The notes beneath the pieces were generated by a model. It worked only from the letters and a program-made list of their open reading frames with translations. It was not told the origin of the DNA and did no database searches. This document shows positions 12,381 to 34,931 of a stretch of 64,000 nucleotides of DNA, one piece after another (the first letter of the stretch is position 1; each line of letters starts with the position of its first letter). The position numbers were made by a program, and so were the translations under genes. Origin of the DNA: Diacronema lutheri (Eukaryota; Haptophyta; Pavlovophyceae; Pavlovales; Pavlovaceae); contig JAGTXO010000004.1 of NCBI GenBank assembly GCA_019448385.1, positions 1,550,001 through 1,614,000 of the forward strand. The letters are read 5' to 3'.

Positions 12381-12419
12381 GGCGCGGTCCGGGCTGGTCC
12401 GACCAGTGTAAGGCTGAGA

Positions 12420-12437
12420 GTACGACCCGGGTCGTAC
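12420..12437. repeat. Perfect 18-bp palindrome
   Basis: GTACGACCCGGGTCGTAC reads identically on both strands. Its position downstream of a TATA-like box fits a dimeric regulator site or part of a mobile-element end. Neither role can be shown from sequence alone. Confidence 0.6.
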
Positions 12438-14577: not shown

Positions 14578-14820
14578 CCGGAGCATGGCGGCTCGACAGC
14601 ATGGCGCCTCGACAGCATGGCGCCTCGACAGCATGGCGTCGTCCAGCGTCACGCCGCGTCGTGGTCCTGCCGCTCCTCCGTGGCGCACGGATGGCGCTCC
14701 TCCGTGACGCAGCCGAACGACGTCGCGGCGTCACGGCCCGGGCGCAGTCGCCATCCTGGACGCCACGCTGGACGGCGCCATGCTGTCGAGGCGCCATGCT
14801 GTCGAGCCGCCATGCTCCGA
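14578..14820. repeat. Spacer with inverted arms between the two elements
   Basis: Both ends carry inverted copies of a GAGCATGGCGGCTCGACAGC-type sequence, with internal tandem repeats of ctcgacagcatggcgc. The large palindrome formed by the two flanking elements therefore continues into the spacer, leaving only about 100 bp around 14,700 unpaired. The same gagcatggcg motif appears again just right of copy B. No gene is seen. Confidence 0.7.
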
Positions 14821-15158
14821 GGCGCCGCCGCTTTCTAAAGGGTGTAGGGTGTAGGGTGTAGGATGCAAAACAAGCCCTCCCCACATTTGGGCCCGACGTC
14901 ATTCCTTCTTTCGTCACAGCGTCATTCCTTCTCCCCCTATGGGACTTTCATAACCGTACTTATCCTACAGCCTACACTATGTAAATATGTAAATGCTTAG
15001 AGAATAGATACTAGATACATCCTACACTAAGTAAAAGTACTCGTATGTGAGTAACGTCACGGCTTCGAAGAAGGAATGACGTCGGGCCCAAATGTGGGGA
15101 GGGCTTGTTTTGCATCCTACACCCTACACCCTACACCCTTTTAGAAAGCGGCGGCGCC
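14821..15158. mobile_element. MITE-like element, copy B (inverted)
   Basis: A 338-bp unit that is the reverse complement of the copy at 14242-14577. A few small indels separate them: an extra tagtatct, an extra atttacat, and a different stretch next to one terminal repeat. The telomere-like TGTAGGG triplets and the GCAAAACAAGCCCTCC motif are intact at both ends. High similarity between copies implies recent duplication or gene conversion. Confidence 0.65.
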
Positions 15159-15252
15159 TCAGAGCATGGCGCCCGCCCGCTCGAGCCGGACCTCCGCGCA
15201 GCCGGACTCGCCCCGCCCCGGGCTGCTCTAGCTGGGCGACGTCGTGCGCGCC

Positions 15253-15537
15253 TCAGAACGCCGCGCTCGCCACGCGCACGTAGCCCTCGTCCGGGTCCGG
15301 CTCGGGCGCCGCGTCGCGCACCGAGCGCGACGCGGCCTCGACGCCCGGCGTTTCGGCACGCGAGGCGACGGATGCCTCGTCCGGCCGGCCCCACGGCAGC
15401 TGCAGCTCGAGCTGGCGCTGGATGATGCGCGGCGTCGCCACGCGCCCGTGCTGCACCTCGCGACGTCGCGCGCGCACGTAGAGCACGATCGCCACCGAGC
15501 CGCTGAGGCCCATCATCGCGCCGAGCAGCACCGACAT
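15253..15537 (-). CDS. Small single-pass membrane protein
   Basis: Predicted 94-residue protein, family not recognised. The first 25 residues (MSVLLGAMMGLSGSVAIVLY) form one hydrophobic segment followed by a basic cluster (VRARRREVQ), giving an N-out/C-in style anchor. The remainder is a soluble acidic tail ending VRVASAAF. ATG 15537 was chosen because the in-frame codon further upstream at 15618 is GTG. It diverges from the broken helicase gene at 15732, leaving 194 bp that could be a shared promoter. Composition matches host genes. A chance ORF cannot be excluded. Confidence 0.45.
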   Translation of the reverse strand: MSVLLGAMMGLSGSVAIVLYVRARRREVQHGRVATPRIIQRQLELQLPWGRPDEASVASRAETPGVEAASRSVRDAAPEPDPDEGYVRVASAAF

Positions 15538-15731
15538 TGTGGTCTCCTTGTCTGCTTGGGCGCGAACGGAAAACGCGCGAAGGGTGGCGACGAAGATCGT
15601 TGGGTTGGGTTGGGCCACCGGCTCCCGAGGGTTGCTTGTGGCGCTCGACTGACCGTTGGCCCAGCTTTTTTTTTTCTCTAACCTACTGTGGAGCCGCCTG
15701 CAGCGTGATCTATCTCCCGCGCAAAACGACC

Positions 15732-18100
15732 ATGGCCGCCATCGACCTGCGCGCCTTCGACGCGGCGCTCGTCAACTGCGAGATCGTGAGCACGCGGCCG
15801 GTCAAGCCGAGCGAGAAGGCGCGCACGGTCGTCAAGGCTGAGCCACGGGCCGTCGCGCCGCGCGCTCGCCTTCGTCACGCCGCCCTGCGTCGTCGACTGG
15901 CCCGAGCTCTCGGGCGACGGCAACTTTGGCACCACGGACGGGCCGACGGACGTCGACAAGGCGGCGTACACGGCCGGCGTGACCGACAAGGAGCTGCCGA
16001 TCGCCGGCGCACCGCTTGTGCAGATGGACGCCTACTTTGGCGCCCTGCGCGCTATCGACGATCAGCGCGTCGAGACGGTGCACGCGCGCCAGAAGGAGCT
16101 GCTCGACACGCGCGGCCTCTCGAAGGAGGAGGTGCGCGGCAAGCTCTCGCCCACCGTCAAGCCCAAATATCAAGGACGGCACGCTCGCGTACACGCGGCT
16201 GAACATGTCGACGCGCACGTTCACGTGGGCGGGCTCCGAGCGCGTCGTGCCGCTCGTCGACGCGCGGCGCGAACCGGTCGACGAGATCCGGCACGAGGAC
16301 GTCTGCGCCATCGCCACGCAGCTCGACTGCGTCTACACGGGGCTCACGGGCTCGATGTTTGGCACCAAGTGGAACGTGTGCGGGGTCATGCTCCTCAGGC
16401 GCGCCGAGCAGCGCCCGCAGCCCGGCTCGGACGCCTTCGCCTCGTACGGCGTGCCCGCCTGGGCCGACACGTTCGACTCCACGGGGCTGTACGTGCCCGA
16501 CGAGCGCGAGCGCGCGGCGGCGCTCGCGGCGGTGGCCGGTCTGCGAACGGCGCGCGCGCCGGCCGGGCCGGGCGGGCGCGAGCTCGCGCGCGCGCAGGGC
16601 TACCATCGCGCCGAGCAGGCTGCGAGCGCGGCGGCGGCGCGCGCGGCGATGGCCGAGACCGGCCAGCAGCGCGCGCTCCACGGCGCGGTCGTCGACTCGG
16701 CGCTGCGCGGCGTGGGCGACCGGCTGCACTTTTGCGACGCGCCGGGCGGCACGGGCAAGACGTTCGTCGAGCGCGCCATCATCGCCGCCGTGCGCGCGGA
16801 TGGGCACGCGGTCGTCGTGTGCGCGTCCTCGGGCGTCGCCGCCACGCTGCTGCCCGACGGCCGCACCTTCCACTCGACCTTCAAGGTGCCCGTCGGCGCC
16901 GACTCGGACGGGCAAGCCCTTTTATGTCGTGCCGCGCTCCGAGCGCGGGCGCTCCGTGGCCGCCGCGGCGAATGATCAGAAGCGGGGCCGCCTCGACTCG
17001 CTCGATCGGTGTTTGCGCGACGTGACGGGCGTCGACGAGCGCTTCGGCAGCAAGACGTTGCTGCTCGCCGGCGACTTTTGCCAGTGCTTGCCGGTGGTGC
17101 GGCGCGGCTCGCGCGCGCAGATCGTGCGCTCCTGCCTCAAGTACTCGGCGCCGTGGCAGCACGATCGGCCGCACGCCTTGGTCGAGAACGTTCGCGCCTC
17201 GAACGCGGCGCGCGACACGGGCGACGCGCTCGGCGCGGGCGAGTGGGCGAAGCTGCCGCGCAGCCTCGGCGACGGCGCCTTTCCCGCGGCGGTGCCGCCT
17301 GCGGGGGCCATGCCCGGCGCATTCCCGCTCGATCCCGTGCAGCTGCCCGAGGCCGTCGGCGGCGTCCCCATCCGCGTGGGCTCGGCCTACCCGACGGAGC
17401 TCGTGACGACTTTGTCCACGGCGCGACGTGTTGGACCGACGACGGCTCGCTGTGCGACCGCGCGGTGCTCTGCGCCAAGCAGACGGACGTGGCGCGGATC
17501 AACTGGCTGGCGATCGGCCGCTTCCCGGGCGCGGCGGCGAGGTGCGCGTCGGCGGACGAGCTGGCGCGACGACGGGGCGGGCGGGCAGATTGCGCTGGCG
17601 TCGGTCGAATTCCTCGACTCGCTCGAGCACGCGCAGATGCCGCACCGCGTCCTCGACCTGAAGCCCGGGATGGTGGTGATGCTGCTGCGCAACCTCTCGC
17701 CCGGCGAGGGGCTGTGCGGCGGCACGCGGCTGATCGTGCGCGGCGTGCGCGCCGGCGGCCGGCTGCTCGAGTGCGCACGCCCCGGCGCGGCCGCCGGGCG
17801 CGACAGCACCGTGCTCGTCGCGCGTGTCGACCACCACTCGCCCGACGACGGCACGTTCGCGCTTGTGCGGATGCGCCGCCAGTTCCCCGGTGCGGCCGGC
17901 GTAACGAGGCGCAGGGGCAAGCGCTCGGGTGCGCGGGCGTGTGGCTCGCCGAGCCGTGCTTCACGCACGGCCAGCTCCACGTGGCCGCTTCGCGCGTCGG
18001 GCACACGTCGCGCGTCCGCTTTGCGCTCGGCCCGGACCTCGTGACGCGCAGCGTCGTCTTCAAAGAGGTGCTCCGCGCGGTCAGCGGTGGCGAGGCGGCG
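15732..18100 (+). pseudogene. PIF1-family helicase with extra N-terminal domain, frame disrupted
   Basis: The start is good (AAAACGACCATGGCC at 15732). The N-terminal region has a pattern I associate with a family found in algal large DNA viruses and some algae, possibly single-strand-DNA binding: VTPPCVVDWPELSGDGNF, then QMDAYFGALRAIDDQ, then GLTGSMFGTKWNV. This resemblance is from memory and tentative. It is followed in one continuous frame (about 16175-16915) by PIF1 motifs CDAPGGTGKTF and CASSGVAATLL. Later motifs are LLLAGDFCQCLPVVRRGSR, NLSPGEGLCGGTRLIV and NEAQGQALGCAGVWL with FTHGQLHVAASRV. To read these motifs the frame must change near 15,860, 16,165, 16,915, 17,405, 17,575 and 17,910 without splice sites. 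Six indels in 2.4 kb indicate a dead copy, or a poorly assembled stretch. Confidence 0.7.
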
Positions 18101-19603
18101 GCGGCGGCGCTCGCCGCGGCCGCCGTCGCCGCCGCGCGCGAATGCGCGGCGGCGGCGCGCGGTGGCGGCGGGCGCGGACGGCGCGCGCGGCGCCGGCGGC
18201 GGGCGGCGCGCTGGCGGCGGGCGCGCCGCCGGCGCGCGGTGCTGGCCAGCACCCGCCGGCGCGACGCCCGCCGCGCCGCTCGCGCCGACGCGCAGCCGTC
18301 GGGTGCTCGCCAGCACCGCGCGCCGCGCGACCGGCCCGCGTACCTGCGCGCCCTTCTAGGGCGCGCAGGGCGGCGCCAATGCGGCCGGCGCGCAGGGGCC
18401 TCAAGCCGGCGCGCTGCCCGCCGCCGCGTGGGTCGCCGCTGCGCGCGTGCCGTCGGCGCTGCCGCCGTCCGGCGTCGCGCTCGCGCCGCAGCCGCAGCCG
18501 CCGCCGTCGCCGCCGCCTGCCGCCTGCCGGCAAGCTGGGCAAGTGCGCAGCGGCGGCGACGGCGGTGCGCGACCCGGCGAGCAAGCGGCGCGCCGCCGAG
18601 CCGGGGGCGGGCTCCGCGGGCGACGAGGCTCGCCAGCCACTCGCACCACTCGCGCGCCAAGCGCGCACAACGCCCCCCCCCCCCCCCTCCCCCCCCCCCG
18701 ATGAATTTAATGCTCATACCATGGCGTCGCGCCACGGCAGTACGCCCGTGGCCCCGGCGGCCAGCCTCGCGCCGCTACGCCGTGTCGTCGCGGCCGGCGC
18801 ACACAGCGAACTGTGTGTCCGCGGCACATGACCGGCTGCTCGCGCGCGCCGAGCTTGCCGAACTGCCCGCGCTGGAATGGCGCGTTGCGGGCGTGCCCGC
18901 GCACCGCGCGTGTGCCATGAGCGTTCCGGGAGCGCCGCGCCGCGCGCCGAAGCGGCGCGCGGCGGAAGTGCGGCCTCGAGCCGAAGAGGGGCCGGCGCGA
19001 CCGGCCGCGAGGCGGGCGCAGACGCTCGGCGTGCCGGTCGATGCGTCGTCCAAATCCGCGTCGGGCGGGTGCGCGCCTGGGCCGGCGCTGCGTGCAGTCG
19101 GCGGGGCCCGGCCACGCGCTCGGGCGTAACGTTCGCGCCTGTTCGGCCGAGGCGCACTCGCCGTCCCCTCGCGCCGGCAACGTGCGTGCGGGCCAGCACG
19201 CAGGCAGCGTACGATGCCACGGCAGCGGCGAGCGCGTCCCCGCCGGTGTGCCGCTCGGCGCCCCGTCACGCGCAACGTGCGCGCCGCCCGCTGCATGCGC
19301 ACGCATACGCGCGCTGGTAGCGTGCGCACAATTGCCTGGGCAAGATCGTCACGCGCTCGCGCCGCCGACGCATCATTCCATGTGTCCGTTTCGGCATCTG
19401 CCACCATCCACCAGTCCTCGAAAGCCGGCTTGCGCGTGGGCGCCCGTCCGGTGCGAGAAGCGGCTCGCGTCCTCGCGCGGGGCGCCTCCGCGCCAGGCGC
19501 CCGGCGCGCGCTCGTCTTGCCGCGCCACCACGCTGATCTGCGCCCAACCCTCGCTCGCCAATTCCCCCGTCGTCCCTGCTGCGCAGCCCGCAACAGCGCG
19601 CGC
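18100..19603. other. Low-complexity stretch without an assignable gene
   Basis: Alanine/arginine-coding GC-rich DNA with two copies of a gtgct(g/c)gccagcacc motif (about 18238 and 18310) and a poly-C run at 18671-18699. In this genome such runs mark introns, so a plus-strand exon could begin just after it; the DNA there reads TPVAPAASLAPLRRVV in one frame and stops at 18831. A minus-strand frame containing KPAFEDWWMVADAETDTWND (near 19.4 kb) is equally possible. Neither is supported well enough to call. Confidence 0.4.
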
Positions 19604-21030
19604 ATGGCGCGTGCACGGCGCAGCGCCTTGAGCAAGTTTTACGTCGTCGGTCGGCAGCCTGTGGAAGACGCGTTTGACGGCCCGATGTGGCCGGTGAGAG
19701 TGCCCGGCGTGCCGCGTGGTGAGCGCCTGCACGGCTTGCCGGGCTCGGCGCGCGCCCAGCCAGCCTCCCTCCACCCCGCCGTAAACCGTGCGCGCGCTCC
19801 CCGCACACCCGGCGCTGCGCGGCGCGGCGCAGGCGCCAAAAACGAGGGCAACGCGTGCTACACGACCGTCCTTATGCAATCGCTCTTCGCCCTGAACGTG
19901 CTCCGTGCGATGCTTCGCTCCGCTTCGCGCCGTGCCAACAGTGTCATGAGGGCGCGTTTTCGGGACTTTGGCACGCTGATCGAGGACACCAAGGCGCCGA
20001 CACGGCTGTGTCTTGTGTCCGTCATTGACGTCATCTCGGGCCGTGGCGCGCGAAGGACGCCGCAGGATGCCGCTGAGTTCTTCCGGTTGCTGCTCGGCCG
20101 AGTGCCCGGGCTCGCTGCGGCCTTCGGAGCCGACACACGCGTCGGGCCAGTGCTCGAGCAGATCGCCGTGCCTTCAGAGTCCGGCGAGGGCGTCGCCGTA
20201 CTCGTCAGCGTCGGCGGCGATGCGGCGCGCGCGCTTGCACACGCTCTGGGGGGCGCCGCTGGGCCGCCGCGGGATGGCCACACGAACGCGGGCCACTCGG
20301 GCGTGCTCACGCCAGCCAGCATCGCTGTCGAGGCGCCGCGCACGACGCGCGGCAATGGCCCGCAGTGCAAGAACAACCGCGCGCTCGTGTGCGCGCCGCG
20401 GCTGCTACTCGGCGGGCGCGACCACCTCCTCGTCGCCGGCGTGGTGCACGTGGGCGAGGGGCCGATGAGCGGGCACCTTGTCGCCATCGTGCTCCGCAAC
20501 GAGGCTTGGCTTCCGTGCGACGACTACAACGTGCGGCGGCGCGCACGGTCGCTCGGTGCCGCGACCGGCGGTCGAGCGCAGCCGCAACCGCCCCGTCCTC
20601 CCGCGCGGCACGCGCGCGTGGCCTGAAAGCTCGCGCGCGCGCCTGCCGCACGCACGCGCGTTGCCCGCGCAGATCTACAACGTGCCAGAGTCCGACGCGC
20701 TGGCGTGGGCAAGTGGTGCGAGCATGCTCGTTCACAGCCGGCTCGACGTGGAGCCGTTGGACCCGGCGCTGGGCTCAGCGTCACCGCCGTCGGCCGCATC
20801 GCCTGCGTGGCCGAGCTCGGAGCCCGACGCGCCGACCTTGCCGGCAGCCTGGCCGCGGGTGCGGCAGATGGCAGCGGTGCCAACAGATGCGACGATCGGC
20901 ATCGCGGAGACGGCTGCAGACATCTCTACGGCGGCGATCGGCCCAGCTGCGCGCGAGGCCCGCCAAGTTGTCTCCGTGACGCGCGCATTGCCAACAGCGG
21001 TGAGTGCGTCCTCGTCTCCGGCGGCCGCTG

Positions 21031-21073
<43 letters not shown>

Positions 21074-21288
21074 ACACACACACCACTCTCCCTACCTCCT
21101 TCCTCCTTTCGCACCTCGCACGCGCACGCCGTCCGCTGCCCGCTGCCCGCGGCCCAAATTGCCTTGCGGAAGCCGAGCAGGCAGAGCCCTGCTTGGATGG
21201 CTCCAGCGCGCATCTTGTGGATGGCGACGCTGTGGGCGAGCACGGACGCTTAAATGTGACCAGTGGCGCGCACGTGCACGTGCGCTAA
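19604..21288 (+). CDS. USP-family ubiquitin carboxyl-terminal hydrolase
   Basis: Cysteine deubiquitinase of the USP (C19) type, predicted 453 residues from exons 19604-20530, 20673-20999 and 21181-21288. The Cys box is KNEGNACYTTVLMQSLF with C85 as nucleophile. A TPQDAAEFFRLLLGRVP segment matches the usual D-x-x-E-F helix. The His box is GPMSGHLVAIVL (H291), followed by W-LPCDDYN (D306/D307). Splicing at ACAAC|gtgcgg and cgcgcag|ATC joins this to IYNVPESD and ASGASMLVHSRL, which matches the family's final AYMLxY strand, so the intron is well supported. The second intron (21000-21180) contains 39 consecutive C. An in-frame ATG at 19214 is possible. The domain is short for a USP and lies within an element-like island, so it may be mobile-element or virus-derived. 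Confidence 0.72.
21035..21073. repeat. Poly-C tract (39 C) in intron
   Basis: Thirty-nine C followed by ACACACACACC, inside the second intron of the USP gene. It occupies the place of a polypyrimidine tract. Confidence 0.85.
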
Positions 21289-21624
21289 CTGGACGTCGAG
21301 CGTGTGCGCCTTGTCCGCACGTGTGCACTCACGTGCGTCTGCGGCGATCTGCCCGGCGCGGTAGTCCGCGCGCGCGAGAGCCGCGTCGGCAGTAGGAGCA
21401 GGACATCGTACTTGCGCCCGACGAGGACGGCGAGAAGTGCGACTTTTCGCTCGGGGCCTACCATGCCGCCGAGGTTGGCGCTGGCGAGCGTGAGGCAGTC
21501 GGAGCGCGCTGGGCCCGGGTTGGAGGCCTCACCCCGGGGGACGGGAGGATTCAAGGCGTCGAGCCGCTGCGGGTGCGGCGGGAGGCCCCGGGCGGGTGTG
21601 CTAATGCGGCTCGATGGCCGCCTG

Positions 21625-21656
<32 letters not shown>

Positions 21657-23962
21657 CGTTGGGCCGCCCGCGGAAACTGAGGTGAGCGTGTGGGAGCGGC
21701 GCGCGTCGGCGCGCGCGGCTGGCGTGCAGCATGGATGGGTCTTATGTGGACTTCGCGGGGCGGAACCCGGTGCAGGGATTGCCGACGTAGGCCGCGAGCG
21801 CGAGCAGGGCGGGGATGAAGACGGATGATGGGGTTGGGGCCAAGGCCGCCGCACCCGCAGCTATCACGGTGGCAGCGACCGCCACGGTCAGTGCGAGGCT
21901 CGCGTGGCCCGCTGCCCGCCAGGTCCAGGAGGGCCGGCCTGCGGCCTCAGTGCCCAGCGTTGGGCATGTCAGCGTCTGCGTCTGCGGGCCCGCCACTGCG
22001 ATGGCGCTTTGAGCCTGGCGCACCAAAACGCAATCGGCCCGCCGATCGGGGGTGCGAGGCGTGCGCGGGGGCTTGGGGTGGGCTCCGGGTGCCGGCGCTG
22101 TGCCAGCGGCGGGCTTGGTTGACGCCGTCTTGCCGGGGCCCTTGCGCCTTGCGGCGCGAGCGTCGCGGAGGGGCGTCGGCTGCGCTGGCTCCGCGTCGGC
22201 GGTGGCGTGGGGCAGGCTCTTGTGGAGGGCGGAGCGCTCGCGCACGAGTCGGTTGCCAAGGCGGGCTGTCTGCGTGCCGTTGGGCTGCGCTTGGGCAGGT
22301 AGGACCTGCGGCCTCGAGGGCGTGCGGGTTTTCGTGTTGGGCCAGGCGGCAGCGCGCACCGGCCGTGTTCGTGGCCGGCAGGCGGACGTCCGCAGCGGGG
22401 CGGAGAATGCGGGTGAAGCGCTTGCATGGGCGCGGTTCGCACCTGGCGGCCAGGCGATCACGAACCGTTGGGTCGCCCGGCTGTTTGGTGGAGCTGAGGG
22501 CAGCAGGGATAGCGAGCTTGGCCGCCTCATCGGTGACGAGCGGCACTGTTGCCCAGCTCTGTACCTCGAAGCCCTGGATGTGCAGGCGTCGGGGAAGTTC
22601 CCGGCAGCGTCGCCTGCGTCCGTCGAGAGGTGGACCGAACTCGCGCCCGTGCCCCCGTTGGCGACACCGAGCTCTCGCTCGTTCACACCGGCCCGCCGAC
22701 GCGGGCGCGTGGTGCGCGCGCGTTGGGTGCGTGTCTGCCTCGAGCAGCGTGCCCAGTCGCAGTGTGGGCGCGTGTCCGTCTGCCTCAAAACGCCACGTGG
22801 AGGGGAAGGTGCGGGGCGGGCTCGCCGAGGAGGTGCTGCCGCTCGCTGCCACCCGGCGCGGGCTCGGTGCAGCCGTCTTCGGGTGCCGCGCTCTTCGCGC
22901 CATGCACGAACGTTCCGCCGCGCTCGCAGCGCGCGAGCGCACACACAGAGCGCGCGGCGACCCCGGCGGGGGCAGTGCGTCCCGGTGGCACTCGCGGGCG
23001 CGCGCCTGGCCTGGGCGCAGCTGGGCGCGTTGCCGCCCGCGCAGCGAGCCGCCCGCGCGCCTCGCCGCGCGCGCGCTTCGTCGCACGCGTGCGCCCTGCA
23101 TGCACGCGCACAGCGCGCGGCGGCTCGGCGCAGTGCAAGGCAGAGCGTGCTGCAACGGTTGCGAGGGCGCGCACGCGCGGCGCGGCGCGCCCCTGTGTGG
23201 TCGCCTGCGCGCGGCGCGTGGTCCGGACGCAGCTCGGTGGCGTGATGCCGTTCGTGCAACGCAGTGCGCGTGAGAGCCGCACGTGCACACCCGCAGTGCA
23301 ACGCGGCATTGCGCGCGTTGCGTGGGCGGAGCGCGGCTGGATGTGCTTGAGGTCGCGCAGCATGCCGCGCGCCGCGCGCTGTGCGGCGCAGCGAGTCGGC
23401 CATGCCCCTGGTCCTCGTCTCCGGGGGGGGGATGGGGGGGGGGGGGGGGGTGGCAACCAGGATCCGCCAGCGCGTGGTGGGCGCCGTCCAACTCCCAACC
23501 AGGATGCGCCCCGTTCTTCCCCGACGCTCTCCGTCCAAACCCGCCGCCCAGCCTGCCGCCGCACCCGCCGCCAACGCCGCCGCGCACCCATCCGCCGAGC
23601 TCACCGCGCGCGCGCTCGCGCTCACGTTGCGCGACGAGGCTGCGCAGGCCGGCGCGCGGCCGTGCAGAGCAGCGCAGGCCGGCGCGCGGCCGCGCGCGCG
23701 CGCTCACGTTGCGGCCGCGCAGCGAGCTTTCGCCGCGTCGCAGCCCCTCCGAGCAGCCACGATGCACGCCCCCGGAGGACGTCGGCCGCGCTCGGAGGCC
23801 GCGCTCGGGCGCGCAACGAGAGGCGGCGCGGGCAAACGAGTAGGCTCGGCGCGCGGGCGGGTCCGGTTGTGGGAGAGCGGGGCATTCTCCAGGGCATCAT
23901 GTAAATTCTCCCAAGTATCATCCGGGCCGCCATCCGGACACTGACGTGTCCACAGTCTGCAG
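21289..23962. other. Unresolved region, probably minus-strand element remnants
   Basis: No gene can be assigned with confidence. Two G runs (21627-21656, 30 G; 23423-23450, interrupted) would be poly-C intron tracts on the minus strand, so minus-strand exons are likely. One minus-strand frame ends at 21742 with two hydrophobic stretches (LALTVAVAATVIAAGAAAL and VFIPALLALAAYVG). Another minus-strand frame near 22.5 kb reads LHIQGFEVQSWATVPLVTDE but changes character on both sides. Long plus-strand frames across 21.8-23.3 kb look like mirror images of these. The last 80 bp before 23963 should hold the promoter of the next gene. Confidence 0.4.
21370..21545 (-). mobile_element. Possible non-LTR retrotransposon fragment (2A-like motif plus start of endonuclease)
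   Basis: A minus-strand frame reads RGEASNPGPARSD, matching the NPGP core of 2A-like peptides that often precede ORF2 of non-LTR retrotransposons. It is followed by LTLASANLGGMVGPERK and KYDVLLLLPTRLSRAR. That order resembles the first strands of an exonuclease-endonuclease-phosphatase domain (S-x-N-x-x-G, then YDVLLLQETRL). The expected catalytic glutamate is replaced (LPT instead of QET), and the frame ends soon after, so any element here is dead and truncated. The match is short and judged by eye. Confidence 0.35.
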
Positions 23963-26900
23963 ATGGAGGACTCCGTGAAGGACGCTTTGCGCGGCGGGCT
24001 GGGCAGCTCGGACAGTTTCTCGCTGGCCCTCAGCACCACCGTGGCGAACGGTGTGCGCCACCCCCACGTGGTCCCACCCGAGTGCGTCCTCGCCCTGCTG
24101 CGTGGCGAGAGTCTCGGCCCGAGCGTGGTCAAGGTGGAGTACAAGGCGTGCTCGAAGCATGCGCTCAAGGTGGCGCTGCACAAACTGGGCCAAGCATGCG
24201 CGGGTGCGCACAACGATGGGCGGGTGCTCGCGATCGTGCTGCCGCTCTTCCTCAAGGCGCCGGGCAGCGTCGGGCACTGCACGGCGGCGTACCTGCTCCT
24301 CGCGCCGCCCGCGCAGCGCGGCGCGCCGCACGGCGCCGCGCTCGCCCTGCACGCCGATTCGCTCAGCTTGGGCAATGGCGAGTCGGCGCACGCCACGGCG
24401 GCCGGCAAGCTCATCAAGACGCTCGCCCAGCGCATCGGCATCCCAGCGCCGCCCATCGATGCCTTGAAGGCGCCCCCGCAGAGTGGGAACGAGTGTTGCT
24501 TCGCCGCGGCAACACTCGCGGCCGAGGTCGCGGCGAGCGCAGCGACGACGGCGGGCCGCCGCGCGAATGTCCTTGTCGGGATCAAGAAGGCTTTGGACGC
24601 GCGCCTCACGCGTCTCACGACGGCCGCGTACGAGGAGACCCGCGCGCGCACGCTCCACGCCGCCGTCGGCGCTCTGCTCGATGACCGCGCCAGGCGCTGC
24701 GGCGCGCTCACCGACGAGGCCGCGCGGCTCGCCGAGGCCGCGCGGCTCGCCGAGGCGTGCGGTGCCAGTGTCGGCGGATCCGCGCCCGACGGGCTGCTGC
24801 GGGCCGTCGAGGCGGCGCTGCGCGCGCCCGCCAACCGCATCGCACGCACGGCCGCGCTCGACGCGCTCACGGGCGCTGCAGGCCCCGCGCTAACGACGGC
24901 GGCCAGGCCGCGCGGCGCGGCGGCGCCACGGCCGCCGTCGCGAGCGCCACCGCCGCGTGCGCCGCAGCGGCGCGCCGCCTCGGCGTGGGGGCACCGAGCA
25001 TTCAGCAGCCTCGGCGGGGGCGAGGGCGACGGGGGCGATGGCGACGCCACCACCGCCGACGACGGGGAGGACGCGGAGGACGGGGACGACGACCTCTCCA
25101 ACGACGATGCGGGTCACGACACCGACGACGATTCCGCCGACGGCGGCGACGGCGACGGCGGCGGCGGCGGCGACGGAGGCGACGGCGGCGGCCGCGGCGG
25201 CGGCCAAGGCTCGCCGTCGGCAGCCCCAGAGGACTTCGCGCTGGCCAGCCCCGAGGCGGTGCTCGAGCTGCTCGCGGCCGCCGCGACTTTGCGCGAGCAG
25301 CTGGCGCTCGCCTTTGCGCCGTCCGGCGGCGCGCGCGGCGACGCGCTGGACGCGAAGCGCGCGCCCTTTGAGGTGCTGCGCTCGCTGCTGGTGCGCGTCG
25401 CGCGGCTGTCGGACGTGCGCGCGCGGCTGCGCCTCCGCCAGCTGCTGCTCGCGCTGCGCGATCCGCGTTGCGCTGCCAAGCGCTCGCGGCGGCGCACGGA
25501 CGAGCTGCGCGACGCGCGCCGCGTCGCCGAGCGGCTCGTCGCCGAGCTGCCCGTGGCCCTGCCCGACTGGCAGCTCTTCTCCGGCGTCTGCGCCGGCGAA
25601 GACGGCTCGGCCGACGCGCCGTTCACGATGCTGCGCGTCGCGCCGCGGCCGAAGCAGCGCGGCGCGCCGGGCGTGCGCGACGTCGCCCAGCTGCTCAGCG
25701 GAGTGCGGCTCTCGAGCGCGCCGCGTGCGCTGCTGGTCGCGATCGACCGCCCGTCGGCCGACAAGGAGCCGGTCGAGCTCGGCGGGCCGGGCGGCGGCGG
25801 TGGCGGCGCGCTCGTGCTCGGCACCGTCGGCGGCCCCGACGCGACGTTCGCGCTGGCGAGCGTGCTCGTCCAGCGCCGCGGCCGCAAGCGCGACGCCTGC
25901 GCCGTGCTCGCGCCCGCGCCCGACGGCGGCTGGTGGCGCGTCGACGGCGGCGGCAAGCAGCGAGACAACGCTGGCAGCGCGGCGGACGAGGCGCGCGAGC
26001 TCGCCGTGGTCGCGCTGTACGAGCGCGTCGAGCCGCACGCGCCGGCGCGCCGAGTGGTCGGCGCGGCCGACGAGGCGCGCCTGTGCGCCGTCGCGCGCGC
26101 GCTCGACGCGCACGGCGAGCAGGTGTGGCGGTGGGCGACGGACACGGCGCCGCCGCTCCGCGACGCGCTCGACGTGCTGCGCGTCGGGGCGGACGCGCCG
26201 TCGGCGTGCGCCGCGCTCGCGGCCGCCGAGCTCGCGCCGCTCTTCGCGCGCGCGCACGTCGACGGCGCGTGGGCGGCGCGCGACGGCGACGTTGTGCTCG
26301 CGGAGGCGCGCAGCGCGGCCGACGCCGACGGCTTCCGCAAACGCACGCGCCGGTCGACGCCGTCACTCCGCCCCAGGCTCGTCGTCGCGCTGCGCGATGG
26401 CACAGGCGGACGGGTCGTGGCGCTGCTCGTCGTGCTGCCGCCGCGCGCGGCGGGCGCCCCCGCGAGGCCGCTGCTCGTCGCGCCGCGCGTCGGCGGCGAC
26501 GACGACTGGCGCATCGCGCGCGCGCACGTCGGCGAGCTGCGCAGCGCGGAGCTGCTCAGCACGGAGCCGACGCACGTCGCGATCGGCGGCGTCGCGCGCG
26601 CGAAGCCGCCCGTCCTTGCGCTCGAGCTCGCGCTGCTCGCGCGTGCGGTCGTGTGCCACGACCTCGGCGACGCGTGGGCGCGCTGCACGAGCGCAGACGA
26701 GATGTGCCGCAGTGCGAACGCGCACATCGCCGGCCTGCCCGACGCGCGCGACGGTGTCGAGCGCGCGGCCGTGGCCGTTGCGGCGCGTCGCTGGCGGAGG
26801 GGCGTGCCGCTCGCGGCGCGCTTCGCCGCCGCGTCCCCGGCCGCGGCGCTAACCCCGCCGGCGGCGGCGGGCGGCGGTGGCTCGGCGCCGCTCGGCGCGC

Positions 26901-29900
26901 CGGTGGCGCACGTGGCGGCGAACGCGGCGGCGGGCGCGCTCGTCGTGGCGGCGGCGGCGGCCGTCGCGGCACCGGGGGCGCCGTGCGCGCCACGCGCGGG
27001 CGCGGCGGCTGCGGCAGTGGTGGTGACGGGCGCGGCGGCGACGAGCGCGGTGGCGGCGGGCGCGGCGCCAACCTCGCCGGCGGCGGCGGACGGCGGTGGC
27101 TCGGCGCCGCTCGAACTCCGCTTCGTCTACACTGCGATTGGACAGGGCGACGCGGACGCGCGCGTGTACGACGCCAAGGACCCCGAGAAGCTAAAAGCGG
27201 GCAGGGCGCGGCTTGAGGCGAACAGCGGGCGCGCGCCCGCCGTGGTCGGCACGCTCGACGCGCACGCGACGGGCACGATCGTCACGCAGCAGCGCCCGGA
27301 GGTCATGACCGGCGCGGAGATGCACCGCCTCGCCGCCCCGACGCAGGGCGCGGGGTACGGTAACGTCGTGCTGGCCAAGCTGGGCAAGCCCGGCTTCGCG
27401 GGGACGACATGGCACATGACGTCGGGCGTGGAGAACCAGTTGCGCGCGGTACGAGCGGCCGCGCGCGGGCTCGCGCTCGACGGCTGGGGCGGCGTGTACA
27501 ATGCGCACGAGGACTTTGCCGCCTTCGAGGGCTTGCCGCGGCTCGCCGCGCCCGAACCGCTCGCGGCCATCGCCGGCGGGTCGGCGGACGCGGTGTTCTG
27601 CTGGCGGTCCGGCCGGTCCGTCATCGGCGAGGTGAAGACGGTTCACTTCGATGGCGACCGCGCCGCTGCCATCGAACACGCGTGGGCGCTGCGCGTCAAG
27701 CCCGATTGGCGCTCGCAGCCCAGGATCTACGAGGCGGCGTGCGGCGCGCAGGGCACGGTGCTGCTCGTGTGGGTCGTGCCCGACCGTCACACGAACCCGC
27801 GGCTGGACTGGGCGCCGATTCTCGTCGTGATCCACCTGCCCGCCGACCCCGACTGGCTCGCGCGCGCCACGCCGGCGATCGAGGAGGCGTGGCGCGAGGT
27901 CGAGGACGGACGCGCGCTCGCGGAGGCGCGCGGCGTGCCGCAGCACCTCGCCTACACGCTAAGCCCACGCTTCCGAGGCACCGCGCCGCACGGCGCCGCG
28001 CGCGTGCCGCCGCGCCTCGGCGCGAGCGACGCGCACGAGGCGCGCGCGCTCGCGGCGCTCGTGTCGGCGCTCATGTTCGTGCCGGCCTGGCGGCGCGCGG
28101 TGCGCGCGGCGAGCCGCGCCCCCGACAGTGGCGCCGCGGCCGTCGCGCGCGCGCTCGCGCGCCTGCACAACGCGCTCGAGCCCGATGACGAGAGCGCGCC
28201 CGAGTCGGCGCGCGTCGCGCCGCTCGCCGCCGCGCTCGAGCAGTCGGCGGGCTGGCCGGCGGGCACGGCGCGCGGCTTGTCGGCCGACGGCGCGCTGCGC
28301 GCGCTGCTCGACGTGCTGCGCGCGTGCGGCGCGAGCGACGAGCTCGAGCGCGCGCTGCGCGGCGGCGAGCCGCCGGCGCCGGGCGCGCCCTCGGCGCGCG
28401 GCGCGTCAGCCGCGTGGCCGCTCGTCGCGCTGCGCGCCGCCGACGCGCGCGGCGCGAGCGCCAGCGCCGCCGTGTCGCGCGCGCTCGGCGCGCACGGGGT
28501 GCGCAACCCGCCGCGGCTCGTCGTCGTGCACGTCGCGGACGCGACCGAGTCGCTGCTCGAGATGCCCGAGCGGCTCGCGCTGCGCGTCGCGCGCGGCGCC
28601 GAGCCGGCCGAGCCGACCGCGGACGCCGCCGGGGCCGACGCCGACGCCGAGCCCGCCGCCGTGCTCAGGCTGGTCGCCGTCGTGCTGCGCGACGCGTGCG
28701 ACGACAAGGAGCGGCTCGTCGCCTGCGCTGCCCTCGCGCCCGGCGATCGCGACTGGATGCGCGTTGCCGCCGCGAGCAGGCGCGCGTGCACCGCGAGGGT
28801 CGCGCTCGAGGGCCGCGCGCTGCTGCTCGTGTACGCGGCCGAGCCGGACGGCGCGCGCGCGCGCGGCGGCGGCGCGAGCGCGCGCGCGGCGGGCGCGCCG
28901 GCCGGCGCGCCCGGCGCGCCGAGCGCGGAGCCGGCCGGCGAGTCGCGCGGCCGCCGCGTCGCGCCGCACCTGCCGCCGCTGCCGCGCAAGCGCAAGCGTG
29001 ATGCCGAGGCGCGCGCGCGGCTCGCGGCCGACACCGCGCGCGTCGACGCGGCGGCGCGATTCGGCGGTCCGCCGCTCACGTACATGTGTGGCGGGCGGCC
29101 GCTGTCGACGCACGACGTGCGCGCGCTCCAGGGCAAGTACACCGAGGTGCCTTCGATCGTCGTCGAGGCCGAGCTCGGCGCGATCAACCGCGCCGCGGAC
29201 AAAGCCGGCCGGCCGTGGAGGACGGCCGGTCCGGCCGTCGCGCGCGCGCTGCTCGCCGCCGTCGCCGACGGCGGCGGCGAGCCCTATCGCGCACAGGCCG
29301 CGCTGGACGAGCACGGCCTCGGCGAGTGCACGCACCTCGCGCTGCTCTTCGCCAGCACCAATCGGCGGGTCGGCGCGGCCGTCGTGGTCGTCGTGCGCGA
29401 CGGCGAGGGCGGCTGGGTGCAGCACTACAACCCGACCGCCGCGCCGGAGCGCGCCACGGGGGCCAAGCCGATCGCCGTGCGCGAGCGCGCCAAGGAGATC
29501 GAGCGCCAGGCGGAGCAGCTCGTCCGCGGGCTCGCGCGCGCGCTCCGCCTGCGCGCGCTTCCGCCCGTCGACGGCGCTGCGCCGGCGACCGCGCGGTCGG
29601 CGCAGCCGACGGCGCACGGGCGCGCGGTCGGCGGCCGCTGGCGCGTCGAGCGCAAGGCGGATTCGCGCGCCGCCTGCGTCGTGGTCATGTCCTGGCTCGC
29701 GCTCGGCGCGCGTGACGCCGCCGCCGACGTCGGCGGCGGCGGCGGCGGCGGCGGCGATGGCGGCGGCGACCAGAGCGCGCTCGCTGCCGCGGCGAGCGTG
29801 CTTGCGCTCAACGTGCACGCGACGGCGCAGCTCGCTGAGTACCGCGCGGCGGTGTTTGCGCTCATCCTGCGCGAGACGGCCGCGCAGCTGCGAGCGCGCG

Positions 29901-31877
29901 ACGCGGCGGTGACGCAGCAGCCGGTCGCGTCCGCGCCGGCGTCGGCGGCGCCGACGCCGGGGGAGAAGCCTCACGCGCGGTGCCTGGACGAGCTCAAGGC
30001 ATCGGGCGGCAAGCATGCGGTCGTGACGCCCGCCGCCATTGACGGCGTGCTCGCCCAGGTGCGCGACCCGGCGCGCGGGTTCCGCGCCTTCTTCGGCCCG
30101 GGCGAGACGCGCGCGCTGCTCGACGCGCGCGACGCACGGCACGAGGCCGTGCGAGAGCGGCTGCGCGAGCGTCTCGACGGTACCGACTGCGACGCGCTGC
30201 TGCTCGTCCACTCGCCGAGCGACGGCGCCGACCCGCAGCTCCTCCTCCTGCTCGCCGCCGACGAGCACCGCGCAGGTCCGAGCGGCCGCTGGCGCCGGTT
30301 CCTCCTGCTCGAGCGCGCGCCGCGCGATGGCGCGGCGGGCGCGGCGGCGACAAGCTGGGCGGGCGGGCTCGTCGCGCGTTTGTTCGGCGGCGACGCGACG
30401 CTCGAGCAGCTGCGCCGGTCGGAGCGCTCGCGTGCGTACGTGCCGCCCGCCGGCCGCGCGGGCGTGTGGGCGCTCGCGCTCGCGCTGTGCGTGCTGCGCG
30501 TGGAGCGCGGCGGCCTGCTGGGCAACGCCGGGCGCGTGTGGCCGCGCGAGCGCGACGCGCAGGCGGCCGGCTGGATGCTCGAGGCGTGGCTGCGCGCGGA
30601 GGCCAAGCGCGAGGCCGCTCTCCTCACGTCGCCGGTGAGCACCGCGCCGGCGTCCGGGCGCGGCGCGGCGGCGGCGCGGCCGCGCGCGGGCGGCGCGGTC
30701 GGCGGGGGCATGCTCGCGTGCGGCGAGTGCGCGGAGCCGGCCGCGACGCCGCGCCGCGCCGCGCGGACGGCCGCGCCGGCGGCCGGCGCGGCCAACGCGT
30801 CCGCCTGCGCGTGCTGCGCGAGCGCCGAGCCGCCGGCCGAGCCGCCGGACGCGACGGGCGAGCGCATCGCTTGCCTGCAGAAGCCGAAGGGCTGGCACAA
30901 GGAGTACCGGACCCTGGAGCTCAGCGACGGCGCCTTTCGCGGGCGGGCAAAGTACGGCGTCAAGCTGATGCGCGTCGTGGACGAGGCGAACGCCAGCACG
31001 CGCATGACGTACAACGTGCTCAACGACCGCGCGCACACATCGCTGCCGAACGCCGGGCAGTGCTCGCCCGGCGACGAGCTGCAGCGCCCAGACGACGAGC
31101 TGAAGGGCTACCCCAAGGGCGAGGACGACGTGGAGAACCTGATCCGCCAGATCGAGCTGCCGCCCGACCAGAAGCGCGGCCATCCGCTCGGCGAGGCCAA
31201 CGCGGCGCAGCGGGCGCGCAACCAGCGGCACATTGACCGGCTGTCGCAGGGCGACGCGCCGACGGCGCGCTCGCACCCTTCGCTAAAAGGCTGCGTCGAC
31301 GCCGAGGCGCAGAACATCTTCACCGCGTACAAGATGCACCCGCGCCGCGTCGCGTACAAGCTGCTGCGCAAGCTGCTGCGCGCGGCGATCGACGCGGGCG
31401 AGGCCGCCAAGCCGCGCGGCGCGCGCGCGTCGAATGAGCAGCGCGACGCGGACGTCGCGACGCTGCTCAAGCTGCTGTGGTCCGGCGACACGGCCGGCGC
31501 GGCGCCGCGGCTGCCGCCCGCGCTCGCGCAGCACGCCGACTGGCTCGTGCTCCCATGCGACTACAGCACGCCTGACCCCAAGGTCAGGCACACGACCAAC
31601 TACTTCCTGACGGTGCGCGCGCGCGCGCGCGCGCGCGCGCGCCGCGCGGCGCGCGCGGGGACGGAGGGGGCTACGCACGGGCCGGCCGCGCGACGGTGGC
31701 CGCGCCGTCCGCGCGGCGCGCGCGCATGCCGCGGCGCGCCCCGCGCGCGCGCGCTCCGCGGCGCGGCGCCGCGGCCGGGCATGGACGGGCGCGCGCCGCG
31801 CGGACGACGTGCCGCGCGCGCGCGCAGCAGGGCCACGGCGCGCGGAGCGCCCGACGGCGCTGATGGCGTGCTCCCCG

Positions 31878-31909
<32 letters not shown>

Positions 31910-33591
31910 TTCCTTCCCTTGCGTGCGCCGCGCAGCCGGATAAGGCGGCGATGGGCGCGTCGCTGCTCGCGCGCCTCGCGATGCTCTACACGCACGTCAC
32001 CGGCGAGCCGCCGCCGTACGCGCTCTGCCCCCGGCGCGGGAGCATGCAGAGGCGCTTTGTCGACCTGTCCGCGCAGGACCTGTACCTCCTGCTCGACGAG
32101 GACGACACGGCGTTCGTCCGCGAGTGGGTGCGCAAGCTGCAGACGGCCGACGGCGTGCCGCACGGCGACCCGCACAACGCGACCAGCGACCCGCGCGTCA
32201 GGGACATGATCTTCTCCCACTTCGTCAGCCTCGACGAGCGGGCGATGCGGTGGACAGGCCAGCAGCTGCCCGGCAGCGACGTGACGGCGGAGCAGCGGCC
32301 CACGTATGTCGGCACCGCCGTCCCACCCGCGACCGCGTCCGCCGGACCGCAGCCGGCGGTGTACATGCGCCACAACGGCCACGCCTGGCAGGTGGTCGTG
32401 CCGGTGTTCAAGCCGCCGCCGCCCGGCGGCAGCAAGTCCTTCCTCGACGATTGGCGCGATCCCAACGGCACGTTCGACGAGGCGACGCCCGAGCAGCTGG
32501 CCGAGGCGATCGAGGTGCACGGCCTCAAGACGGCCACGGTGGACCCCGGCTCCGACGGCTTCGTGACGTACGCGCCGAACGGACGCGGGCTCGAGCCCAC
32601 CTCGGTTCGCCTCACGCAGCGCGAGCGCGCCGCGCGCGCGGGGCACGCGCGCGAGCGCAGCAAGCTCGAGGGCGCGCGGCAACGGCCGCTCGTCGAGCCG
32701 GGCGCGCGCGCCGGCCCGTCGGGGCCGGGCGGCGCGCGGCCGCGCGCGCCGCGTGCTCCGCCGACGGCGGCCGCGCTCGAGGCGGAGCTCGGCGCGGCGC
32801 ACGGCGGGCGCACCGCGCTCGGCGCGAACGACCAGGCCGCCTACGCGCGCGCGCACGAGCGCGTGCGACGGGCTACGCTGCCCGTGTACGGCGCGCGCGC
32901 GCGGCTGCGCGCGCGCAAGCGGCGCGGCGGCGCGAGCTGGCGCGAGTGCGCGCGCGCGGCGGCGCGGATCGTGCGCGCGCACGCGACCGACCGAGGGCTG
33001 CGGCCAGACCAGCTGCTCGTGCTCTTCGGCGATTGGCTCCACCGGTCGCGCGGCGGCGGCTGCGTGCGCGGCAAGGCGCCGGCGCTCGGCGTCGGCGTGC
33101 TGTGCGCGCTGCGCCGGCGCGGCGTCGCGGCGACGCTCGTGCCCGAGCCGCTCAGCTCCAAGTGCTGCTCGCAGCTGCGCGAGGTGCCGGGCGCGCCCGC
33201 TGCGAGCGCGGCGCCGGCCGCCGACGCCGGCGCAGGCGCTCCCGCCGACGACGGCGCGCCGACGACGGCGGACGAGGCGGCGGGGCAGCTGCCGCCGCTG
33301 CAGCGATGCGGAGGCACGCGGCACCCGTACGCGCGCAGCTCGCCGAGCGGCCGCGGCGCGTGGCGGGCGACGCGGTGCGACGCGTGCGGCATCATCTACC
33401 ACCGCGACTGGACGGCGGCGCGCTGCATCTACCACGATGTGCTCGACATGGTCGCCGACCACCTCGGCAGGCGTGAGCGCATCACGTCCGAGCCCGGTCG
33501 CTTCAAGCGCGTCAAGGCCTTTTGGCAGCGCGCCCTCGGTCGCGAGAGAGAGCACGACGAGGGCGTGCTGCAGGTGGACGAAGACGAGGCG

Positions 33592-33624
<33 letters not shown>

Positions 33625-33661
33625 TCCGGCGGCGGCGGTGGCGGCGGCGGTGCCGGCAGCC

Positions 33662-33702
<41 letters not shown>

Positions 33703-33775
33703 TCCGGCGGCGGCGGTGGCGGCGGCGGTGCCGGCAGCCGCGGCGGCGGCGCCGGCGGCGGCGGTGCCGGCAGCC

Positions 33776-33816
<41 letters not shown>

Positions 33817-33974
33817 GGCGTCAGCGGCAGCGGCGTTGGCGTCCCCGGCGGCGGCCGCGGCGGCGGACGCGGCGGCGGACGCAGCGGCGGCCGCGGCCGC
33901 GGCCGCGGCTGCGGCCGCAGCGGCAGTGCTGGTGCTGCCGGCGCCGCCGACGGTGCCGCAGCCGCTGCCGCACA

Positions 33975-34016
<42 letters not shown>

Positions 34017-34422
34017 TGCCGCTGCCGGCACCGGCACGACCGGCGGCAACGCGCGAGGTTCGCTCGCGTCCGCACGCGACGCGGCGCCGGAGGCGAAGCG
34101 CCAGCGTCGCGTCAGCACGGCAGCCGCGAACGGCGCAGCCCCTCGCCGGTCGGCGGCGACCTTGCGGCGGGGCGGCTCGGCCAGCCCGAGCACGCGCGCC
34201 ACGCCCCCGGGCCCGAAGCGGGCACGGGCGAGCCGCAGTGGCGCACGGGACGCGGCCGCCGCCGTGCGCGCGCGCGCGCACGCGGCGCCGCGCGTGGCGG
34301 CGCCGCGCGGCGGCGCAGCCGGTGGCGCGACGAAGCGCGCCTGCCACACCCTGCTGAGAACAACGCTTCATGGCGATCTTCAGCCTCAGCACGAGCCGCT
34401 TGCGGCTTCGCACGCCCCGTAA
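23963..34422 (+). CDS. Giant Ulp1-like protease / PD-(D/E)XK nuclease / Fanzor-like nuclease fusion
   Basis: Predicted 3,378 residues from exons 23963-31612 and 31936-34422; both splice phases are zero and the intron carries 31 C before its AG. Residues 60-190 look like a C48 (Ulp1) peptidase: H105, D132, Q173 and C178/C179, with Q-to-C spacing as in the family. Residues about 420-700 and 1340-1630 resemble USP folds without the Cys box. Residues 1050-1330 hold a PD-(D/E)XK nuclease core (D1209, E1223-V-K1225). Two further Ulp1-like segments (about 1710-1920 and 2010-2200) lack full catalytic sets. Residues about 2300-3070 resemble TnpB/Fanzor: VDPG (D2753), LFGDWLH, PEPLSSKCC (E2954), a CDAC knuckle and YHRDWTAAR (D3041). 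A glycine/alanine tail follows. Whether one protein or several unrecognised exons and genes are encoded needs RNA evidence. Confidence 0.6.
31613..31935 (+). other. Intron with 31-base poly-C tract
   Basis: The intron opens gtgcgcgcgc and ends cgccgcgcag. Its only long homopolymer is the C run at 31879-31909. Splicing joins NYFLT to PDKAAMG in phase zero and moves the frame from one that soon loses similarity to the one carrying the nuclease motifs. Confidence 0.75.
33593..34030. repeat. Glycine/alanine-coding GGC and GCC microsatellite
   Basis: Imperfect GGC repeats with two copies of a GSGGGGGGGGAGSRGG-type block, turning into GCC repeats near 33980. They encode the disordered tail of the giant nuclease fusion. 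Length is probably polymorphic. Confidence 0.8.
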
Positions 34423-34931
34423 GGGTCGTATATACGCCATGTGCTTCTTGCGCTGCTCGCCTGGCCGGACGCAGGCCGCGCCGCGCTCGCCGCGCTCGCC
34501 ACGCTCGCCGCGCTCGCACACCTCGTCGCGCTCGGCCTTTTTGCCGCCGACGCCGGGCGCTGGCGCGCCGACGCTCGCGCCGACGGCTGCGTCGGTGCTG
34601 TCGGCGACGGCGCTGGCACGCCGCGCGTCGCATCGGCGCGCGCGCTCGCGGCCGTGCTGTGCCGCGCGAGCCGGCGGCTGCGCCGTTGGCGCGAGTTGAG
34701 CCGCGCCACGTCAGCCATGCTCTTTCATGCCGTCTGCTGCACCGTCGACGCGCTGCTCGCGTGCGCGCTCCTGCTCGGCGGCGCGCTGCGCGCGGTATCG
34801 GGCGCGATGCGCGCGCGAACAGCTTGGCGGCGGCAGCAGCGCGCTCGCGTGCGCGCCGTGTAGCGCGCGCGCGGCCGCGCTTGTCGCACCCACCGTTGAA
34901 AAGGGTCATGACCACGGAGACTGTCTAGAAT
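34423..34931. other. Intergenic stretch, possible small membrane ORF
   Basis: Lies between the giant nuclease gene and cyclin H (both end here). A GTATATAC motif is at 34428-34435. A plus-strand frame from 34441 to 34863 is strongly hydrophobic (LALLAWPDAGRAALAALATL; later CTVDALLACALLLGGALR) but has no ATG at its start; its first in-frame ATG is 34717, leaving 48 residues. I do not call it a gene. This is also where a guide RNA of a Fanzor-type nuclease would be expected. Confidence 0.35.

Follow-up and report, generated by a model that had tools for sequence, protein, structure and literature searches.

The closest described systems are transposons that carry Fanzor genes. In the portions of the cited papers used here and below, Fanzor proteins are marked by a DPG motif in RuvC1 together with a glutamate that precedes the zinc finger by six residues, a fingerprint present in <1% of TnpB-family proteins (PMC10711439), and by the pattern D-X(125,275)-[TS][TS]-X-X-C4-X(5,50)-RD (PMC3627910). 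MCi-5 elements lack a significant terminal inverted repeat (TIR) and show a putative duplication of 6 bp, ATTTAT (PMC3627910). In insect-virus Fanzor1s the guide RNA spans the 3' end, the target-site duplication (TSD) and then some 15 nt of the flanking DNA (PMC10711439). Protease domains of the Ulp1 or OTU type are found in Ginger1, Mutator and Crypton transposons, and a C19 domain adjoins a protist transposase (PMC2836005, PMC3212892). Fanzors are known to travel with many transposons; a high-copy element with defined ends and a fixed target allows a direct test of what they do there.

Here we describe such an element in the haptophyte Diacronema lutheri. It occupies 22,049 bp (12380..34428, plus strand) of a 64,000-nucleotide window, i.e. 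the whole stretch that was analysed (assembly GCA_019448385.1, contig JAGTXO010000004.1, forward-strand positions 1,550,001 to 1,614,000); coordinates refer to this window. The element is almost certainly a transposon, and the locus is probably best explained overall as an insertion of a large, recently spread D. lutheri DNA transposon with a Fanzor-like nuclease. An earlier note on this DNA had placed a giant fusion gene of a mobile element or defence-type factor at 23963..34422. Mobility is strongly supported by shared ends, a 6-bp duplication and 179 left ends; the extent proposed was too small, as it left out a PIF1 helicase, a ubiquitin-specific protease (USP) and the left end. The giant gene lies in the 3' half of the element. 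For the defence role PADLOC, the sole search made for it, gave only weak matches.

Ends, target site and copy number

The window contains TATATA only twice, at 12374..12379 and 34429..34434, and these two copies form the left and right TSD. The boundaries were set by homology edges and by a host kinase gene rejoined across one of the copies (C4). In a DNA search the left homology edge falls at about 12373 in most copies listed, and on the right the alignments of ten close copies to the window all end at 34435-34437. The 5' edge of similarity varies among these ten aligned copies, with C46b, C34 and C75b related only from within the element. Alignment columns ahead of 23963, which contain copies whose 5' flanks are unrelated, were left aside. 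Left ends were fetched from nine copies and read CTATATA-N-GGCGCG in eight (sister copies continue as CTATATA-N-GGCGCGG) and CTATACA-N-GGCGCG in L057. On the right the window copy reads TATATAC, as do nine of the ten copies fetched; C1 reads CATATAC.

Copy C4 (L050, L040) is inserted within the HRDLKPEN loop of a host protein kinase. Joining its flanks with a single TATATA yields HPPAI|YHRDLKPENIMF and restores the loop; the rejoined product, HPPAI|YHRDLKPENIMFADEGRTCAKLIDFGYAQ, is the catalytic loop of a protein kinase. The TSD is therefore exactly 6 bp long. Flanks were joined for six copies in all; the kinase was identified for C4, the other five being open frames. The joined flanks of the window copy (12200-12379 plus 34435-34840) give a 206-aa frame with hydrophobic runs, for which Pfam returned RexB below threshold (15.8 bits, cut-off 27). 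Apparently the insertion interrupts a host reading frame that codes for a hydrophobic protein.

The left terminus, N-GGCGCGGTCCGG (12380..12392, plus strand), is conserved. Its exact form CTATATANGGCGCGGTCCGG occurs 179 times in the genome, with zero occurrences of the reversed control, and these left ends come from at least three related families. The base N directly after the left TATATA is G in 14, C in ten and T in one of 25 printed left ends, and A in the window. Base 12380 is variable (A/C/G/T) among copies while the rest of the left end is fixed, and it may record the joining chemistry. A subterminal palindrome, TGAGAGTACGACCC/GGGTCGTACAATCA (12415..12442), has CGACCC/GGGTCG in common with a terminal hairpin formed by the last 16 bases (34413..34428, plus strand), a candidate 3' stem of a guide-RNA scaffold. 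This right-end hairpin, CGACCC-GTAA-GGGTCG, is perfect in C12 and C36b and has one mismatch in the window copy. Within the outermost 60 bases on each side no TIR is prominent (best 10/15).

The first 216 aa of the giant protein have at least 150 matches in the 43.5-Mb genome; among the matches listed, 18 show 79-100% identity (window counted) and more than 100 show 71-74%. Exon 2 has 24 matches at 94-100% identity, again with the window counted. The 18 N-terminal and 24 exon-2 matches represent family A, the family of the window copy. Ten fetched copies are 94-99% identical to the window across long aligned pieces, which argues for recent spread.

Family B is commoner: of 414 PIF1 candidates 150 were listed, and 120 of these have one and the same score (89.7 bits). 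The starts of contigs C5, C10, C26 and C29 are each 31.01-31.07 kb away from a left end; contigs C1, C26 and C29 begin with 70 bases that are alike, save a few outermost ones, and contain no telomere repeats; N-terminal and nuclease parts are 17.7 kb apart in the family B group. From these distances, the common contig starts and the spacing it follows that family B elements measure about 31 kb. At that length 120 copies would amount to up to 3.7 Mb or about 8.6% of the assembly, a rough upper figure, as copies at contig ends are incomplete. At least 21 copies among the matches listed represent a third family, with 96% DNA identity to the window at 13001-14767 and 16269-17353.

Two copies of the 71-74% identity group (L027, L028) resemble family A in the protein module, as far as about residue 350; beyond that point they are unrelated to it up to residue 716, where the compared piece ends. 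The nuclease parts of this group match exon 2 of family A at about 44%, and open frames in the larger families reach 6136 aa. Contigs C1, C26 and C29 (L058-L060) start at the same edge of the 31-kb family, and the element probably causes contig breaks. A subtelomeric repeat, which the nearness of contig ends to these elements had suggested, was rejected as explanation: these starts are without telomere repeats, and assembly breaks at repeat edges account for them well enough.

The giant gene and its companions

Exon 1 (23963..31612, plus strand) comprises 2550 codons. It is followed by an intron (31613..31935, plus strand; phase 0) with donor GT at 31613, a C/T tract and acceptor AG at 31934-31935, across which the reading phase is kept, and by exon 2 (31936..34422, plus strand) with 828 aa plus stop. 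The spliced product has a predicted length of 3378 aa (2550 + 828). The frame of the ATG at 23963 stays open past the donor to 32209 (2748 aa). Openness alone is weak evidence, because long open frames are cheap at the GC content of the window (75%); a minus-strand frame at 2-8785, for instance, is open for 2928 aa. GC at codon positions 1/2/3 amounts to 0.71-0.86 / 0.55-0.66 / 0.89-0.98 (600-bp windows starting 23963 to 31163) and to 0.77/0.71/0.79 just upstream of 23963, and the bias moves to the exon-2 frame after the intron. The exon joint NYFLT|PDKAAMGAS also occurs in two public gene models from other copies, KFE25_007303 (P0003) and KFE25_011735 (P0004). The part of the D. lutheri genome paper used here states that gene models were made by BRAKER2 with RNA-seq. 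Codon-position composition and the same joint in two models together indicate that the giant gene is coding. That both exons encode one 3.4-kaa protein is a prediction: the joint appears in gene models, and no full transcript was seen. KFE25_007303, in which a USP exon is joined to exon 1, also runs on into a host kinase, a fusion that is probably an annotation artefact.

The long frame, the intron with its splice ends and the in-phase second exon of the earlier note are thus borne out, and all of the motif letters it had named are present (H105/D132/Q173/C179, D1209/E1223/K1225, VDPG, PEPLSSKCC, CDAC, RDWTAAR). Exon 2 is open (705-872 aa) in all 11 copies examined, and its length varies among copies. 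Searched as a whole against Pfam, NCBIfam and PHROG, exon 1 has no match with an E value of 1 or less; its pieces gave weak sub-threshold matches to Ribosomal_L11_N (13.6 bits, Pfam) and MTase_II (14.2 bits, PADLOC).

Exon 2 likely encodes a Fanzor-family nuclease, judging from its residue pattern. Key residues are (exon-2 numbering) D203-P-G, G365, E404, C411, C458, C481, C484 and D491. The published fingerprint is present, i.e. D203-P-G, and E404 followed by six residues and then C411. The pattern of PMC3627910, as given in the part of that paper used here, is likewise found (D203, S407-S408, C411/C458/C481/C484, R490-D491), with an irregular C4. When exon 2 (560 aa) was shuffled 20,000 times and the full protein 3,000 times, a widened DPG pattern did not arise once, and a version relaxed to DxG arose in one of the 20,000 exon-2 shuffles; there is no second occurrence of the widened pattern in the six frames of the window. 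The second zinc pair, C481/C484, is intact. A GGC/GCC-rich low-complexity stretch at 33592..34027 forms a long inverted repeat, and many of the matches at about 44% show a gap at the low-complexity insert (query 214-250). PADLOC returned weak matches to Cas12f and Cas12u4 (13-14 bits, E 0.006-0.007). Of the C-terminal Fanzor/TnpB-like nuclease claimed earlier, the sequence fingerprint stands, accompanied by a sub-threshold Pfam TNB match, and a fold match was not obtained. The protein lacks the Fanzor1 motif TDG (see below) and is therefore not filed under Fanzor1.

The N-terminal module (aa 1-350, 23963..25012, plus strand) contains the quartet H105-D132-Q173-C179 and is common to the copies of 71-74% identity. 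All four residues are invariant in eight of eight aligned copies, one of them from that group; the His position reads HW in six and HC in the window and L012. HW, DS and Q-x5-C make up the Ulp1 pattern, and H(W)-D-Q-C is the C48 catalytic quartet. The C48 pattern arises in 38 of 20,000 shuffles in the HW/HC form and in 932 of 20,000 in the plain H-D-Q-C form. The PF02902 profile has nine matches in the genome, none of them on contig C75, and a Pfam scan of the N-terminal piece found none; the module is therefore labelled 'Ulp1-like' only. As to the predicted Ulp1-like N-terminus, the quartet upholds it, being invariant in 8/8 copies with HW in six, but a profile match is missing. Internal indels come in multiples of three (18 and 24 bases in L024, 18 and 27 bases in L026) and keep the frame; further gaps of 42 and 45 are sums of those indels, end effects of fixed-length pieces. 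Against L028 there are many small gaps which are not multiples of three. The first 100 residues (23963-24262) vary mainly at codon positions 1 and 2.

The central PD-(D/E)XK nuclease of the earlier note found no support. The letters D1209/E1223/K1225 are present (27587..27637, plus strand), but a loose PD-(D/E)XK pattern has nine matches in exon 1 against a mean of 4.5 in shuffles, and since it is so common there the D...ExK letters identify nothing alone. The stretch matches no Pfam profile and no PDB entry. A single-sequence model of the D1209 region shows strand-strand-helix at a predicted local distance difference test (pLDDT) score of 39, too poor to search. The PD-(D/E)XK assignment was set aside as unsupported, in view of the pattern counts, the missing profile and PDB matches and the poor model.

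The 5' half of the element possesses a PIF1-type helicase (16016..18044, plus strand), which in the window copy is split across two frames: 16016-16975 with Walker A, and 16359-18044 with the rest and the 2B domain (PF05970 68.8 and 61.2 bits; PF21530 54.5 bits). The match shifts frame at 16915-16983, between Walker A and the rest, where introns or decay are possible. Most listed genome copies match only part of the PIF1 profile. A USP (peptidase C19; 19214..20626, plus strand) scores 39 bits against PF00443, above the cut-off of 23.9, with its Cys box (NACY), Q(D) box (QDAAEF) and His box (SGHL...DDYNV) all in frame. These boxes lie in a single frame in six of 11 copies, are cut short in two and absent from the fetched 5' part of three. 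A probable coding exon at 13404..13922 (minus strand) shows codon-position bias and no Pfam match; no function is assigned. A large internal inverted repeat (14241..15156) is 85% identical to its own reverse complement, as a self-match on the opposite strand, and holds runs of TGTAGGG/CCCTACA, which are telomere-like 7-mers.

Host open reading frames (ORFs) flank the element. Downstream, 36147-39698 encodes TIG, G8 and CEMIP beta-helix domains; on the left, 9753-12155 and 2-8785 (minus strand) have a cyclic-nucleotide-binding domain and a weak AAA match.

Proposed movement and rival explanations

The likeliest role for the Fanzor-like part, with a prospect close to even, is that it cuts the empty TATATA site under RNA guidance and the element is copied back. 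The stop codon of exon 2 ends 6 bp before the last base of the element, and the terminal hairpin takes up the last 16 bases. The element inserts at CTATATA and duplicates TATATA. A guide RNA might be transcribed through the 3' end of exon 2, across the right TATATA and into the flank; this anatomy is proposed because the insect-virus Fanzor1 guide RNA, as described in the part of PMC10711439 used here, has the same one. The right flank would then serve as guide and the TATATA of the left flank as the adjacent motif needed by the nuclease. The nuclease would cut the uninserted site on the sister or homologous chromosome, and repair at the cut would copy the element back in. The proteases may act on factors of repair or silencing, removing SUMO or ubiquitin, or may serve to process the giant protein; PIF1 may assist in copying the long element. 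About 180 left ends at different sites would provide many natural guides, so that the copy-back model is testable genome-wide. Two deconjugating proteases and PIF1 suggest control of host repair as part of moving large DNA.

A number of results weigh against the preferred explanation as a whole. Folding of the candidate guide-RNA region does not exceed that of shuffled sequence (z -0.54), and the region contains no Rfam family at gathering score; a guide RNA of Rfam type was rejected on the latter ground. Pfam scans of the ORFs of the window copy and profile searches of the genome found no transposase. Exon 1 is interrupted in six of 11 copies and open to the donor in five. In the N-terminal module the usual sign of purifying selection is missing and the pattern is the opposite: changes in residues 1-100 at codon positions 1/2/3 number 22/18/8 against L026, 20/22/12 against L028 and 16/14/11 against L024. 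This could reflect diversifying selection or be a product of extreme third-position GC, between which we make no choice. In exon 2 the first zinc CxxC is split, C458 following C411 only after a low-complexity insert, and the search pattern allows wider spacings than those published, chosen so that this protein matches (120-230 from D to E, 2-60 between the first two zinc Cys, 12-30 between the second and the third), so the shuffle control tests rarity and not a prior prediction. PF07282 (TNB) scores 23.3 bits (E 7e-5), below the gathering score of 26.3; there is no NCBIfam match and no credible PDB sequence match, and the single-sequence model of exon 2 has a pLDDT of 36.8, too poor to search. 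Nowhere in the 3378 aa of the protein is there a TDG, the Fanzor1 motif of the WED domain. Protein searches and a viral scan found no homologue of exon 2 outside Diacronema. The protein searches, which scored the roughly 8000 candidates sharing most words, such that low-complexity words may hide relatives, returned two Diacronema fragments only; three scans of viral contigs gave five, six and eight pattern matches, none of which was confirmed.

Some of these results would fit an exon 2 that is a degenerate Fanzor-like tail, kept as a structural or DNA-binding end after cutting was lost. The split first zinc pair with its insert, the sub-threshold PF07282 match and the missing structured RNA signal at the 3' end all point that way, but exon 2 retains DPG, the glutamate in its displaced position, one CxxC and the last D, and it is open in 11/11 copies against 5/11 for exon 1; we regard degeneration as rather unlikely. 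That the whole is an ordinary giant host gene lying by chance in a repeat draws on the codon bias and the splice joint, and is refuted by the shared ends, the 6-bp duplication and the 179 left ends; its probability is practically nil. Among mobile elements, a rolling-circle element of Helitron type, with PIF1 as the helicase half of RepHel, would explain the PIF1 match and a hairpin or palindrome close to both ends. However, Helitron_like_N has a single genome match, on C63 and outside these elements, and no HUH-Y pattern occurs in one uninterrupted frame of the element, where an intron could hide one. TATATA is duplicated over 6 bp, and such a target duplication is not known as a feature of Helitrons. 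Even though Fanzor1 genes occur in Helitrons according to the part of PMC3627910 used here, a Helitron was rejected for want of a Rep (HUH) domain and for the TATATA duplication, and its chance is remote.

If a tyrosine recombinase moved the element in the manner of Cryptons or Starships, TATATA would be the crossover core and the variable base a remnant of the previous site. This agrees with the 6-bp direct repeats at the ends, the missing TIR in the last 60 bases and the variable left-edge base N; terminal repeats of Cryptons measure 4 or 6 bp, and C48 peptidases occur in some of these elements (PMC3212892, in the part used). Phage_integrase, however, has only 16 genome matches, far below the number of element copies and none on C75, and the ORFs scanned contain no Pfam recombinase (DUF3504 was not run). 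This candidate was rejected on those two grounds and we consider it unlikely. Descent from a Polinton/Maverick or a virus, with capsid and polymerase genes lost, would account for the size, the 6-bp duplication and the Ulp1-like protease: 6-bp duplications are a Polinton hallmark, and Polinton proteases belong to the same clan. A PIF1-like helicase is moreover known in the Polinton-related Tlr1 (PMC4642659, in the part used). Against it stand the missing Pfam matches to integrase, polymerase B or capsid in the scanned ORFs of the window copy, the missing TIRs in the last 60 bases and the three viral-contig scans without relatives, so that it appears very unlikely.

The preferred reading remains a variant of the Fanzor-bearing DNA transposons, new in its gene set. 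Because scanning of the window copy turned up no known transposase, the elements might even constitute a superfamily of their own. Tentatively, this would comprise giant (22-31 kb) eukaryotic DNA transposons specific for TATATA and with no known transposase. Their RNA-guided Fanzor-like nuclease would be fused to the end of a protein of 3.4 kaa, possibly exceeding 6 kaa in some copies of the larger families, and would be accompanied by PIF1, a USP and a SUMO-type protease; the middle of the protein would contain a new recombinase.

Comparison with described elements

Searches of the open-licence PMC literature, judged by title and opening of the abstract, showed no description of a transposon with this gene set (Fanzor, PIF1, proteases). 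In common with Helitrons the element has a PIF1-type helicase and hairpins near its ends; it differs in the TATATA duplication and in that no Rep domain was found. Like Ginger1, Mutator and Crypton transposons it carries a ubiquitin/SUMO-type protease, whereas here a USP and an Ulp1-like module accompany a Fanzor-like nuclease and no DDE transposase or Y-recombinase was found.

With Fanzor1 and Fanzor2 the predicted exon-2 protein has D-P-G, the displaced glutamate, one CxxC and RD in common, and both lie within a transposon, here at its 3' end. In contrast to them its first zinc pair is split, TDG is missing and the nuclease forms the tail of a protein of about 3.4 kaa. The distance from D to SS (203 residues) is within the range of PMC3627910, whereas that from DPG to E (198) exceeds the 120-160 of the PMC10711439 pattern, as these appear in the parts of the two papers used. 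The nearest likeness among whole elements is with the Fanzor1 transposons of Bao and Jurka 2013 (PMC3627910), which, in the part used here, also combine a Fanzor gene with no clear TIR and a short duplication. Compared with these, the D. lutheri elements measure 22-31 kb and carry a helicase and two deconjugating proteases, a set that does not appear in that part of the paper.

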